From Rhodospirillales bacterium (GTDB lineage: Bacteria; Pseudomonadota; Alphaproteobacteria; Rhodospirillales; UBA2165): a stretch of DNA of 32,668 bases. Below are positions 19,613-23,735 of the stretch, one piece after another. The notes beneath the pieces are model-generated. The model was not told where the DNA came from, ran no database searches, and saw nothing but the letters and a program-made list of their open reading frames with translations. The translations under genes were made by a program, and so were the position numbers. Position 1 is the stretch's first letter. The number at the start of each line of letters is the position of its first letter. The stretch is taken from the NCBI GenBank assembly GCA_012960465.1, contig DUBF01000058.1, positions 97,627-130,294 on the forward strand, given 5' to 3'.

Positions 19613-21190
19613 TCAAAAGCTGAGGGAAGTTGCTCTTACAACATGAGGAATACCCCTTACTTTATCAGTTATCCCTTCTGAAATAGGCCCATCAATTTCA
19701 ATAAGAGCAATAGCGTCACCTCCCTCTTTATTTCTTCCAAGATTAAAAGTAGCAATGTTAATATTATTTTCACCAAGCGTAGTTCCGAGCGCACCGATGA
19801 ATCCAGGCTCATCTTCATTTGTGATATAAAGCATGTTCGGCCCCAACTCAGCGTCGATAGCAATACCTTTAATTTCAACAATACGAGGTTTATCACCGGC
19901 AAACAGTGTGCCCGATAAAGCACGCGTCTGAGCCTCAGTGGTAACTGTCAGCGTAATTTTGGTTTGGTACTCATCCAACACATCACAGGTAACTTCCGAA
20001 ATTTCAATGTTACGTTCCCTAGCTATACTCCGAGCAGAAACCATATTTACAGACTCCAAAAGCGGGGTTAACAGACCTTTTAACACTACGGCGGTCAGCG
20101 GCTTAGTATTTAAATCAGCTGCTTGACCACAATACTCAATCTGTACTTTCTTTATCGCCGTTTCTGTTACTTGCCCTGCAAAGCTGCCAATTTGTTCCGC
20201 CAACTTTAAATATGGAGCAAGTTTAGTTGCATCTTCTGCACTGACGGAAGGCATATTTATTGAGTTCACAACCGTACTATCCAGTAAATAATCTGAAATT
20301 TGTTCTGCTACCTGCATTGCAACATTAACCTGGGCCTCATCCGTAGACGCTCCTAAATGAGGAGTTACTATAACTTTATCCATTCCGAAAAGGATATTTT
20401 CTCGAGCTGGCTCAACTTCAAAAACGTCAATACCTGCGCCCACGACCTTCCCCATTTCAATAGCTACCTTAAGATCGGCCTCGACGATTAAGCCCCCTCG
20501 AGCGCAGTTTATAATACGAACTCCGTCTTTCATTTTCGCAAATGACTCTGCATTGATAATACCCCTTGTGGCATCAGTCATTGGTGTATGGAGAGAAATA
20601 AAATCAGCCCGCGGAAATAATTCATCTAATTCAACTTTTTCAACACCGAGGTCATTAGCGCGCTCTCCCGATAAATAAGGATCATAGGCAATGACCTTCA
20701 TTTTTAAACCGAGTGCTCGATCGGCGACAATAGCTCCAATATTTCCACAACCGATGATGCCAAGTGTTTTTGCAGTTAACTCAACGCCCATAAAATTGGC
20801 TTTCTCCCATTTCCCAGCATGAGTTGAAGTATTGGCAAGTGGAATATCGCGAGCCAACGAGAAGATCATAGCAATCGCATGTTCTGCGGTGGTAATTGAA
20901 TTACCAAATGGCGTATTCATAACCACAATCCCTTTAGTCGAAGCCGCCGAGACATCAATATTATCAACGCCAATACCTGCGCGGCCAATCACCTTCAAAT
21001 TAACAGCCGCTGTAATAATTTCCGAATTCACCTGCGTAGAAGATCGGACGGCTAAGCCGTCATATTCACCGATACAACCTTTTAATTCTTCTGGTCGCAT
21101 ACCAGTTATAACATCAACTTCTAAACCGCGTTCTTTAAATATAGCTTCAGCTCGTGAACTCATTTTGTCTGAAATTAAAACCTTCGGCAT
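19613..21190 (-). CDS. serA: D-3-phosphoglycerate dehydrogenase
   Basis: Encodes 525 residues. It oxidises 3-phosphoglycerate to 3-phosphohydroxypyruvate with NAD, the first step of serine synthesis. The NAD loop is GIIGCGNIG (144-152). Active-site arginine lies in NCARGGLI, glutamate in VFEVEPA and histidine in TPHLGAST. An intervening domain (about 320-450) and a C-terminal ACT domain (about 453-525, MLYITNEDEPGFIGALG) make this the long form, which is often serine-regulated. It lies 38 bases after serC, and its initiation region AAGGTAGGAGTAAA duplicates that of serC. Confidence 0.96.
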   Translation of the reverse strand: MPKVLISDKMSSRAEAIFKERGLEVDVITGMRPEELKGCIGEYDGLAVRSSTQVNSEIITAAVNLKVIGRAGIGVDNIDVSAASTKGIVVMNTPFGNSITTAEHAIAMIFSLARDIPLANTSTHAGKWEKANFMGVELTAKTLGIIGCGNIGAIVADRALGLKMKVIAYDPYLSGERANDLGVEKVELDELFPRADFISLHTPMTDATRGIINAESFAKMKDGVRIINCARGGLIVEADLKVAIEMGKVVGAGIDVFEVEPARENILFGMDKVIVTPHLGASTDEAQVNVAMQVAEQISDYLLDSTVVNSINMPSVSAEDATKLAPYLKLAEQIGSFAGQVTETAIKKVQIEYCGQAADLNTKPLTAVVLKGLLTPLLESVNMVSARSIARERNIEISEVTCDVLDEYQTKITLTVTTEAQTRALSGTLFAGDKPRIVEIKGIAIDAELGPNMLYITNEDEPGFIGALGTTLGENNINIATFNLGRNKEGGDAIALIEIDGPISEGITDKVRGIPHVVRATSLSF

Positions 21191-21228: not shown

Positions 21229-22398
21229 TTACGCAGCGTATTCTATTGCGACTTCTGCAATCGCCCAGTCAATCCATGACGTTAATGATTTAAGATCATC
21301 TGCCTCAATCGTAGCTCCAGACCAAATACGCAATCCCGGTGGCGCGTCGCGATAAGAATCGATGTCATACGCGACACCTTCTTGATCAAGTAATGCACCA
21401 ATTCGTTTTGCAGCTTCTACTTTTTTTTCGTTACTAAGATTGAAAAACCAATCAGCAGTAATCTTCAAACATACAGATGTACAGGATTGAGTTTTAGTGT
21501 CTTCAGCTAAAAAATCTACATTTCTGGTATTTTTAACCCACCGTGCAATCTCGGCAAAATTGGTTTCAGATCTCTTGATTAGCGATTTAAGACCACCAAT
21601 ACTGATTGCCCAATTGAGGCCGTCTAAAGCATCTTCGACACAAAGCATGGAAGGTGTATTAATGGTAGAAGCTTTAAATATCGACTCATTCAATTTTCCA
21701 TCTGACGTAAGGCGAAAAATTTTTGGCAAAGGCCAAGCGGGCTTATAACTTTCAAGGCGTTCTACTGCGCGCGGACTCAACACCAGTACGCCGTGCTGAG
21801 CTTCACCGCCCATTACTTTTTGCCACGAGTAGGTTGTAACATCGAGCTTTTCCCATACTAAATTCATAGCAAAAACTGCAGAAGTCGCATCACAAAATGT
21901 TAATCCTTTACGATCATCAGGTATCCAATCCGCATTAGGTACACGAACACCCGACGTGGTTCCATTCCAAGTAAAAACAACGTCGTTTGAAAAATTAATA
22001 TCGTTTAAATCGGGTAATTTACCGTACTCAGCTGTAAGCTCTCTAACGTCATCAAGTTTAAGTTGATTAATAACATCATCGACCCAACCCTTACCAAAAC
22101 TCTCCCACTGCACCATATCGACACCGCGCGCACCCAACATAGACCATAAAGCCATTTCAACTGCGCCAGTATCTGAGCCAGCGACAATACCAATCCTATA
22201 TTTATCAGGGATTCCAAGAACCAAACGTGTCTTATCTAGTACTTCTTGAATTCTTTTCTTACCAGGCTTAGATCGATGCGACCTACCCACTAATGCATCG
22301 CTCAAAACTTCGGGCGCCCACCCGGGGCGTTTAGCACAAGGTCCAGAAGAAAAATTAGAATTACGAGGCCGATGGTTCGGCTTATTAACACTTGGCAT
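21229..22398 (-). CDS. serC: Phosphoserine aminotransferase
   Basis: Encodes 389 residues of the alphaproteobacterial-type SerC. It transfers an amino group from glutamate to 3-phosphohydroxypyruvate, the second step of serine synthesis; the B6 pathway uses the same enzyme. [15 protein letters not shown] (about 13-27) binds the substrate end, [13 protein letters not shown] (about 73-85) is the phosphate region, and the PLP lysine is K194 in [16 protein letters not shown] 22398 is preceded by GGTAGGAG and a structured leader. It is followed by serA, so the two serine genes form one unit. Confidence 0.94.
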
Positions 22399-22570
22399 CT
22401 GTTTTACTCCTACCTTTACAGATAGGGTGCTAAAAAAGTACGTCTCTACATAATCAGATTTATTGAATATTTAACAATAAAATCATTGCCGTAATTTATT
22501 AACAATCCTATCTTAACACAGATAGGCTTATTACCCGTTGGGGGATAATGGCCCGGCGCCGGTTTTATAC
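22399..22570 (-). promoter_or_regulatory. Structured 5' leader of serC, candidate serC RNA motif
   Basis: On the minus strand, hairpin CCTATCT-GTAA-AGGTAGG (22426-22409) is a 7-bp stem (one U-G pair) with a GNRA-type loop whose 3' arm is part of the Shine-Dalgarno region; it ends 10 bases before the serC ATG. Farther upstream are CCTATCT-GTGTTA-AGATAGG (22526-22507), a stem ATTA-CCC/GGG-TAAT with one bulge (22549-22530), and the palindrome CCGGCGCCGG (22562-22553). A serC leader RNA motif is known upstream of serC in alphaproteobacteria; position and hairpin over the ribosome-binding site fit, but a covariance search is needed. A TTGACA (22589-22584) and TATAAA (22569-22564) 14 bases apart may be the promoter, although the spacing is short. 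Confidence 0.5.
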
Positions 22571-22676
22571 GGTTTTGTCTCAATGTCAATTAGTTTTAAT
22601 GGTAATAATTTTACCAAGTTACTAACCAACTTAATTTTATTATAAATTGAAATACGAAACCAAAAGATCAAATAAT

Positions 22677-23735
22677 TTATAGAGCACTCTCTAATTCCTT
22701 ACCTAAATCCATAGTACTCGCTGTACCACCCATATCAGGTGTCATACAAGAACCATCTGCAAGTACTGTTTCAATCGCAGATAAAATGTCTCTAGCCGCT
22801 GCCGTTTCACCAAAATGATCTAGCATCATTGCACCTGACCAAATTTGCCCGATTGGATTGGCGATACCCTTACCTGAAATATCAGGAGCAGACCCATGAA
22901 CCGGCTCGAACATTGATGGGAAAAGGCGCTCTGGGTTGATGTTACCTGAAGGAGCTATTCCAATTGTACCGGTAACCGCTGGACCCAAATCGGATAAAAT
23001 ATCCCCAAAAAGATTTGACCCGACAACCACATCAAACCAATCTGGATTGCGCACAAAATGGGCTGTTAATATGTCAATATGAAATTTTTCGACCTTGATA
23101 TCTGGGAACTGTTTATGCATCTCAACCACCCGCTCATCCCAATAAGGCATGGTGTGAATGATACCATTCGACTTAGTAGCAGATGTCAGGTGTCTATTTG
23201 GGCGTGTTTGTGCCAATTCAAAGGCATATTTTAAAATTCGATCAACGCCTTTGCGTGTAAAGTTGGATTGCTGTGTCACGAACTCTTCATCTGTACCGGC
23301 GTAGAGCTTTCCGCCAATCTCCGAGTATTCACCTTCGACATTCTCGCGTACCACGTAAAAATCAATATCCCCCGGTTTTCGATTGGCTAGCGGACTTGGA
23401 ACACCTTTGAATAAACGCACAGGACGTAAGTTCACATATTGTTGGTACTCCCGTCGAAATGGTATTAACAATCCCCAGAGTGAAATATGATCTGGTACAC
23501 CTGGAAAACCAACCGCACCAAGATAAATCGCATCATGTTCACTGGTCTGATAAATGCCATCTTCCGGCATCATCTGCCCGGTCTTTTTGTAAGTTTCACA
23601 AGACCAATCAAACATATCCCACTGGAATTTTAAATTATGTTTACGACCAACGGCATCCAAAACCCTAATACCCTCAGGCACGACCTCTTTACCAATTCCG
23701 TCACCTGGGATCGTGGCTATTTTATAAGTATTCAT
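22677..23735 (-). CDS. Tartrate/D-malate dehydrogenase family protein
   Basis: Encodes 352 residues of the isocitrate/isopropylmalate dehydrogenase superfamily. IPGDGIGKEVVPEG opens the protein. VNLRPVRLFKGVPSPL and ENVEGEYSEIGG are the substrate-binding parts characteristic of tartrate dehydrogenase or decarboxylating D-malate dehydrogenase (TtuC/DmlA) rather than LeuB. The metal-binding aspartates are in GSNLFGDILSDLG and the NAD region in EPVHGSAPDISGKGIANPIG. Likely NAD- and divalent-metal-dependent oxidation of D-malate or tartrate; related proteins vary in substrate. It stands apart from serC (278-base gap) and thiD (142-base gap), so it is probably transcribed alone. Confidence 0.85.
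   Translation of the reverse strand: MNTYKIATIPGDGIGKEVVPEGIRVLDAVGRKHNLKFQWDMFDWSCETYKKTGQMMPEDGIYQTSEHDAIYLGAVGFPGVPDHISLWGLLIPFRREYQQYVNLRPVRLFKGVPSPLANRKPGDIDFYVVRENVEGEYSEIGGKLYAGTDEEFVTQQSNFTRKGVDRILKYAFELAQTRPNRHLTSATKSNGIIHTMPYWDERVVEMHKQFPDIKVEKFHIDILTAHFVRNPDWFDVVVGSNLFGDILSDLGPAVTGTIGIAPSGNINPERLFPSMFEPVHGSAPDISGKGIANPIGQIWSGAMMLDHFGETAAARDILSAIETVLADGSCMTPDMGGTASTMDLGKELESAL

Follow-up and report, generated by a model that had tools for sequence, protein, structure and literature searches.

The serC element was described in 2005 (Corbino et al., PMC1273637). According to the accessible text of that report, the ordinary element consists of two stems, the second of which hides the ribosome-binding site and has the start codon no more than 11 nt beyond it; serine, threonine and vitamin-B6 compounds were tested and caused no change in the ordinary serC RNA (PMC1273637). 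According to PMC7266159, conserved sequence and structure were added to the motif by Greenlee et al. in 2018. No signal for the serC element is named in the portions of the literature available to us. Because one hairpin does both, sensing and output are indistinguishable in ordinary leaders.

Two other kinds of RNA control resemble the leader described here. In trp-type attenuators, strands exchange as 1:2, 2:3 and 3:4, and the middle pairing excludes both outer hairpins. In riboswitch expression platforms, one strand of the sensor stem also belongs to an anti-sequestor or an antiterminator.

Here, we analysed the leader of a serC-serA gene pair in a window of 32,668 nucleotides, the whole stretch of Rhodospirillales DNA under study. 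The leader has a real and conserved structure, and it is a variant of the serC leader that recurs within one order. We call it an extended serC leader, related to RF00517 rather than a member of this family.

Layout of the leader and its relation to RF00517

The leader occupies about 22560-22399 on the minus strand and folds as a first-pass annotation of the sequence had described. It precedes serC (phosphoserine transaminase, 389 aa, 21229-22398, minus strand) and, downstream of it in the same direction, serA (phosphoglycerate dehydrogenase, 525 aa, 19613-21190, minus strand), both of which pass their NCBIfam cut-offs. The conserved core of the serC element comes first, namely GGGCCA and hairpin 1 (22530-22554, with the stem-loop itself at 22549-22530), in which AUUAUCC and GGGUAAU enclose the loop CCCAAC. 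Across a linker, AAG, it is adjoined by hairpin A (22507-22526), formed by the arms a5 (CCUAUCU, 22526-22520) and a3 (AGAUAGG, 22513-22507) around the loop GUGUUA. A spacer follows at 22428-22504. In constrained folds, its ends can pair (UGUUAA at 22504-22499 with UUAGCA at 22433-22428), which would place the strands on its two sides next to each other. Hairpin B (22409-22426) lies 80 nt downstream of hairpin A and is built from b5 (CCUAUCU, 22426-22420), a GUAA loop (22419-22416) and b3 (AGGUAGG, 22415-22409). Its seven pairs include one U-G, it is GNRA-capped, and it masks AGG, the first three bases of the Shine-Dalgarno sequence AGGAG (22407-22411), which stands 8 nt before the AUG (22398-22396). 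The annotation had thus correctly recognized a GNRA-capped 7-bp hairpin over part of the serC Shine-Dalgarno sequence (hairpin B), three structured elements upstream of it (hairpin 1, hairpin A and the spacer with its pairable ends) and an arm CCTATCT common to two hairpins, which is the 5' arm of both A and B.

Directly before the leader, we noted by eye the promoter-like boxes TTGACA (22589-22584) and TATAAA (22569-22564) on the minus strand, separated by 14 nt and together spanning 22564-22589. In many relatives, TTGACN- and TATANA-like boxes, also identified by eye, are found at a similar distance from GGGCC. The pair in the window is absent from the output of a consensus promoter scan, which allowed spacers of 16-18 nt only. 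Further upstream, at 22677-23735 on the minus strand, a tartrate dehydrogenase gene (TIGR02089, 558 bits, cut-off 470) points in the same direction as serC. A terminator scan of the window reported hairpin A as terminator-like; with only ATTGTTAATA after it, this was not accepted.

RF00517 matched the leader at 22558-22503 over all 52 model positions (1-52), scoring 23.0 bits against a gathering score of 35. The E value was 0.011 in a 901-base search around the leader and is about 36 times larger for the whole window. At the gathering threshold there was no match anywhere in the window, and the site was reported neither by the RF00517 search of its own genome nor by that of 150 genomes of the order. 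A broader model, R1, did report it. R1 was built from 40 hand-chosen hairpin-1 regions (39 of 71 listed plus L140), ten of them from extended leaders; its structure carried four wrong hairpin-2 pairs, two of which survived, and it was used only to locate sites.

The leader shares with RF00517 GGGCC(A), hairpin 1 with its CCCAAC loop, a second hairpin with UCUG right after it (A), a GNRA-capped hairpin over the Shine-Dalgarno sequence and serC-serA downstream. The boxes seen by eye immediately ahead of it may be the counterpart of the promoter elements that ordinary serC leaders have in this place. It differs in that the second hairpin is present twice and the start codon lies 108 nt past the first copy, leaving hairpin A without a start codon at the usual spacing. 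Two features of the family are therefore lacking, i.e., a score above the gathering threshold and a second hairpin that hides the Shine-Dalgarno sequence with the AUG at most 11 nt beyond, the latter being provided only by the added hairpin B; hence our term extended serC leader. The suggestion of the first-pass annotation that this could be a divergent or extended serC motif is supported by the full-length, sub-threshold RF00517 match, covariation in hairpin 1, the same gene pair and bridging relatives. The family match (below the curated cut-off) and the covariation were the two signs by which the annotation had proposed to check this suggestion, and both were found. The duplicated-hairpin layout is not described in the accessible text of the literature found on the serC motif; Greenlee et al. 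(2018) may already note extended forms.

Conservation, distribution and origins

Covariation in hairpin 1 was assessed for its 6 inner pairs in a set of 40 sequences that includes the window's. Of 239 cells, 97.9% pair, with far lower values in slid controls, and 61 cells are changed on both sides, compared to an average of 15.9 in shuffles. One of the five covariation measures, the number of pairs showing any double change (5), was reached by 350 of 500 shuffles and does not exceed them; the other four were reached by none of the shuffles. A pseudoknot could form between the GGG that precedes hairpin 1 and the CCC in its loop; both triplets hardly vary, which speaks neither for nor against such a pairing. 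The folding energy of the whole leader was discarded as proof of structure (z -1.57, 12 of 200 shuffles as good, not significant).

To place the extended leader within the order, we relied on R1, which matches 192 of 317 genomes at an E value of 0.01. We inspected 129 of these R1-positive genomes (22 from the window's family, 14 from the Magnetovibrio family and 93 from other families) and found extended leaders in 20, including the window's own genome. They fall in two families, with 6/22 genomes in the window's family, 14/14 in the Magnetovibrio family, where they span five genera, and 0/93 in the others. Of the 24 genomes in the window's family, 22 gave a serC match and 22 an R1 match, and their leaders divide into 16 ordinary and 6 extended ones. 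Five of the latter belong to the window's genus (G000, the window's own genome, G157, G159, G144 and G124) and the sixth, G081, to another. Among the 93 other-family genomes, no clear motif could be seen in G115 (25.6 bits). Five loci (L187, L195, L312, L313 and L322), in which the loop or the 5' part varies or the protein match starts late, were assigned by visual inspection to the ordinary form. Beyond the order, R1 has matches in 123 genomes (125 of the 385 in the class sample, minus two that belong to the order). No extended leader was found in the 80 of these that were inspected, which include one or more from every matching family; 74 are ordinary by distance and 6 on reading, including L254 with a different second hairpin.

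In total, 21 extended leaders from 20 genomes were analysed, 15 from the Magnetovibrio family and 6 from the window's family. Hairpins 1, A and B recur in the same layout in these relatives, and the four arms of A and B are mutually complementary within each leader. The arms differ between lineages (CCUAUC, CCAUCUG and CCCUUC); those that stay constant within a lineage yield no covariation signal there. The leaders are related, so the counts given here are not independent. The motif UCUG, present in 111/120 ordinary leaders, has been retained by hairpin A in 19/21 extended leaders, compared to 4/21 for hairpin B. Since UCUG is kept in A far more often than in B, A looks like a constrained sensor copy. 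The frequency in ordinary leaders was taken from the 120-leader set; an earlier set of 138 leaders had been picked by a pattern that itself required CTG.

In a SerC protein tree restricted to the window's family, four extended members (G000, G157, G144 and G124) group together with a support of 0.82. G159, also extended, falls with the ordinary G156, G069 and G158 (support 0.92; 0.59 within the group), and G081 falls with the ordinary G040 and G056 (support 1.0), so that a genome with an extended leader stands next to close relatives whose leaders are ordinary. The row labelled G016out in this tree is locus L014 of genome G065. Given these scattered positions, gain, loss or exchange of the layout happened several times. 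The Magnetovibrio-family leaders carry a different hairpin A, CCCUUCUGCCGnnnGGCGAAGGG, in 12/15 cases and CUG for CCG in the other three. This difference in detail suggests that their form may have a separate origin.

The sporadic distribution in the window's family would also fit another history, in which a palindrome was inserted into the loop of the ordinary hairpin 2 and tolerated since a5 could still pair with b3 and mask the Shine-Dalgarno sequence, with little or no new function. An a5:b3 helix of 6-8 bp is indeed possible in all 21 leaders, and G081 has a hairpin B that, flank included, is the same as the ordinary hairpin of its close relatives G040 and G056. Against such a history, all 14 inspected genomes of the Magnetovibrio family, from five genera, are extended, with a U-tract added. 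There is also no sign of a repeat element in the window's genus, where a search of its nine genomes for hairpin A plus spacer returned the window itself, the homologous leader of G157, the start of the G124 leader and four short weak matches. We regard an insertion with little or no new function as quite unlikely. A mobile-element origin of the spacer was rejected, there being no repeat family among those matches.

Several further loci deserve mention. Hairpin 1 and linker of G081 (locus L059; UUACCC CCCAAC GGGUAGCAAG) are nearer to the window's clade (window 22549-22527) than to its own close relatives; its promoter and hairpin B resemble those of its own genus, which points to convergence or exchange of leaders. 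G151 has two serC genes about 3 kb apart (C51, 39780 and 43031; locus L201), each with its own ordinary leader. In G158, a second strong R1 match (L202, contig C209, 187-236) lies near a contig end, and no serC was found in the fetched stretch, whose downstream side is cut off. By eye, L083 shows at about 1372-1500 a serC-type element, after which a short frame, MHRSILHLPLFIRLLF, ends at the serC Shine-Dalgarno sequence. This record is labelled Myxococcales; its serC-type element suggests an alphaproteobacterial contig.

Alternative pairing of the four arms

Because a3 can also pair with b5, which excludes both hairpins A and B, the layout resembles that of an attenuator. The longest contiguous a3:b5 helices, with G-U pairs allowed, are 7, 7, 10, 8, 8 and 8 bp in the six leaders of the window's family, and in the Magnetovibrio family 9 bp in 13/15 leaders and 8 and 6 bp in the other two. 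As a control, 80 ordinary 5' arms were paired with six of the a3 strands, the window's included, giving averages of 5.0-5.5 bp. The observed a3:b5 length was reached by 10/80 ordinary arms for the window, and by 0, 0, 1, 0 and 0 for the other five. The window alone is thus weak evidence, its 7 bp being matched by 10 of 80 ordinary arms, and the relatives carry the argument. In the Magnetovibrio family, GGC before a3 (15/15 leaders) and GYY after b5 (13/15) lengthen the a3:b5 helix past the shared arm.

The predicted energies of a transcript cut before b3 point in the same direction. In such RNAs, a3:b5 is predicted over hairpin A in 19 of the 21 leaders, including G093 with a near tie at -0.1, and hairpin A is favoured in two. 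The window favours a3:b5 by 3.0 kcal/mol. Compared to dinucleotide-shuffled spacers in this cut transcript, the natural spacer was better than the shuffled mean in 21/21 leaders and ranked within the top 5 of 100 in 11/21, with the window ranking 3 of 100. In full-length RNA, natural spacers were favoured in all six leaders of the window's family, and Magnetovibrio-family leaders gave an inconsistent effect (z -1.42 to +1.70). The spacer helix was left out of the covariation counts because its register differs between leaders and MAFFT does not align it.

In the finished RNA, the balance is less simple. For the full window leader, the fold with hairpins A and B is predicted at -44.4 kcal/mol, compared to -42.8 for a nested fold with a5:b3 and a3:b5. 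As a5:b3 can form alongside a3:b5, the Shine-Dalgarno sequence is hidden in both of these main predicted folds. The best folds in which it is free lie at -39.2 kcal/mol with a3:b5 and at -39.1 with hairpin A. Since a5 can take b3 in the finished RNA, access to the Shine-Dalgarno sequence may depend on timing while the RNA is being transcribed, or on whether hairpin 1 or a partner retains a5. The first-pass annotation had proposed that the upstream CCTATCT competes with the downstream copy for AGGTAGG as a possible switch. This pairing, a5:b3, is possible with 7 bp in the window, but the Shine-Dalgarno sequence would stay hidden by it, and the exchange that the relatives support better is a3:b5.

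Hairpins A and B are each stable and occur together in the window's lowest-energy fold, and the Shine-Dalgarno sequence is paired in both main folds, as would also be expected if no strands were exchanged. Hairpin A would then be the old sensor and hairpin B a default mask of the Shine-Dalgarno sequence, opened by a separate factor, and the spacer would merely keep them apart. Neither the spacers that favour a3:b5 relative to the shuffled mean in every leader nor the GYY after b5 in most Magnetovibrio-family leaders are explained in this way, and we consider such an arrangement unlikely.

Proposed control in the two families

Our preferred reading, which we hold to be probable, is that hairpins 1 and A of the extended leader sense and hairpin B acts, and that the two parts are linked by exchange among a5:a3, a3:b5 and b5:b3. 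Hairpins 1 and A, whose geometry is that of the ordinary serC element, would do the sensing, and hairpin B, the duplicate of the Shine-Dalgarno hairpin, would be the output. The strand a3 would have two possible partners, a5 in hairpin A and b5, with the spacer aiding the latter pairing by folding on itself. As long as the sensed signal held hairpin A closed, b5 would be free for b3, hiding the Shine-Dalgarno sequence and keeping serC-serA off. When hairpin A opens, a3 would take b5 and b3 would become reachable by the ribosome. We infer that this exchange takes place in cells; a signal to be sensed is likewise presumed to exist. The presumed direction of control would be the same in both forms, because closing the ordinary second hairpin also hides the Shine-Dalgarno sequence.

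With regard to known systems, the extended leader is like a trp-type attenuator in having four strands and a middle pairing that excludes the outer hairpins, and Magnetovibrio-family leaders also share the U-tract that follows 3:4. It differs in that its 1:2 pair belongs to a conserved structured element, that no conserved leader peptide was seen in the extended leaders and that the last hairpin in the window hides the Shine-Dalgarno sequence rather than stopping transcription. As in riboswitch expression platforms, its sensor stem would share a strand with an anti-sequestor or antiterminator.

A leader peptide could nevertheless be imagined to take part, with hairpin A hiding the start of a short upstream frame whose translation decides the fold of B. 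Consistent with this, 13/15 Magnetovibrio-family leaders have a TTG (12) or ATG (G082) with a Shine-Dalgarno-like stretch just after a3; these starts sit just after GAAGGG of hairpin A (L171-L186). The encoded peptides range from 4 to over 30 residues and have no evident sequence in common, however, and frames preceded by a Shine-Dalgarno-like stretch are absent from all six leaders of the window's family, the window offering only an ATG that lacks one (MILLLNIQ). The frames of all 21 leaders, inspected by eye, had no peptide in common, nor was any of them serine-rich. Leader-peptide attenuation was rejected for want of a common frame, and control by such a peptide in general appears very improbable to us.

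In the Magnetovibrio family, the strand exchange that we favour may act at a different level. All 15 leaders carry a run of six or seven T within 17 nt before the ATG, compared to 1/120 ordinary leaders within 15 nt and 2/138 within 17 nt. The resulting U6-U7 after hairpin B is like a terminator, and hairpin B is probably a terminator that also holds the Shine-Dalgarno sequence; together they would stop transcription instead. A terminator scan of L180, the only Magnetovibrio-family locus scanned, reported none. The hairpin was missed because the scan limited loops to 8 nt and these loops measure 11-14.

Taken further, the serC element may be a modular sensor, more than just a Shine-Dalgarno hairpin, that in several lineages of one alphaproteobacterial order was cut from the Shine-Dalgarno sequence and rewired more than once to a new output by four-strand exchange, in a translational form in the window's family and a transcriptional form in the Magnetovibrio family. 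We put this wider view forward tentatively, with chances slightly under even. If it is true, the sensed state is predicted to close hairpin A and turn serC-serA off. Extended leaders separate sensor from output, and they suggest both the sensor bases (hairpins 1 and A, UCUG) and the direction of control. Magnetovibrio blakemorei may offer a transcription read-out usable to screen for the signal.

The leader of Magnetovibrio blakemorei MV-1 (L124) is identical to that of G021 (L175). Another genome of this family, G237, has two serC loci (L180 and L200, on contigs C52 and C65), both with extended leaders and with different spacers.
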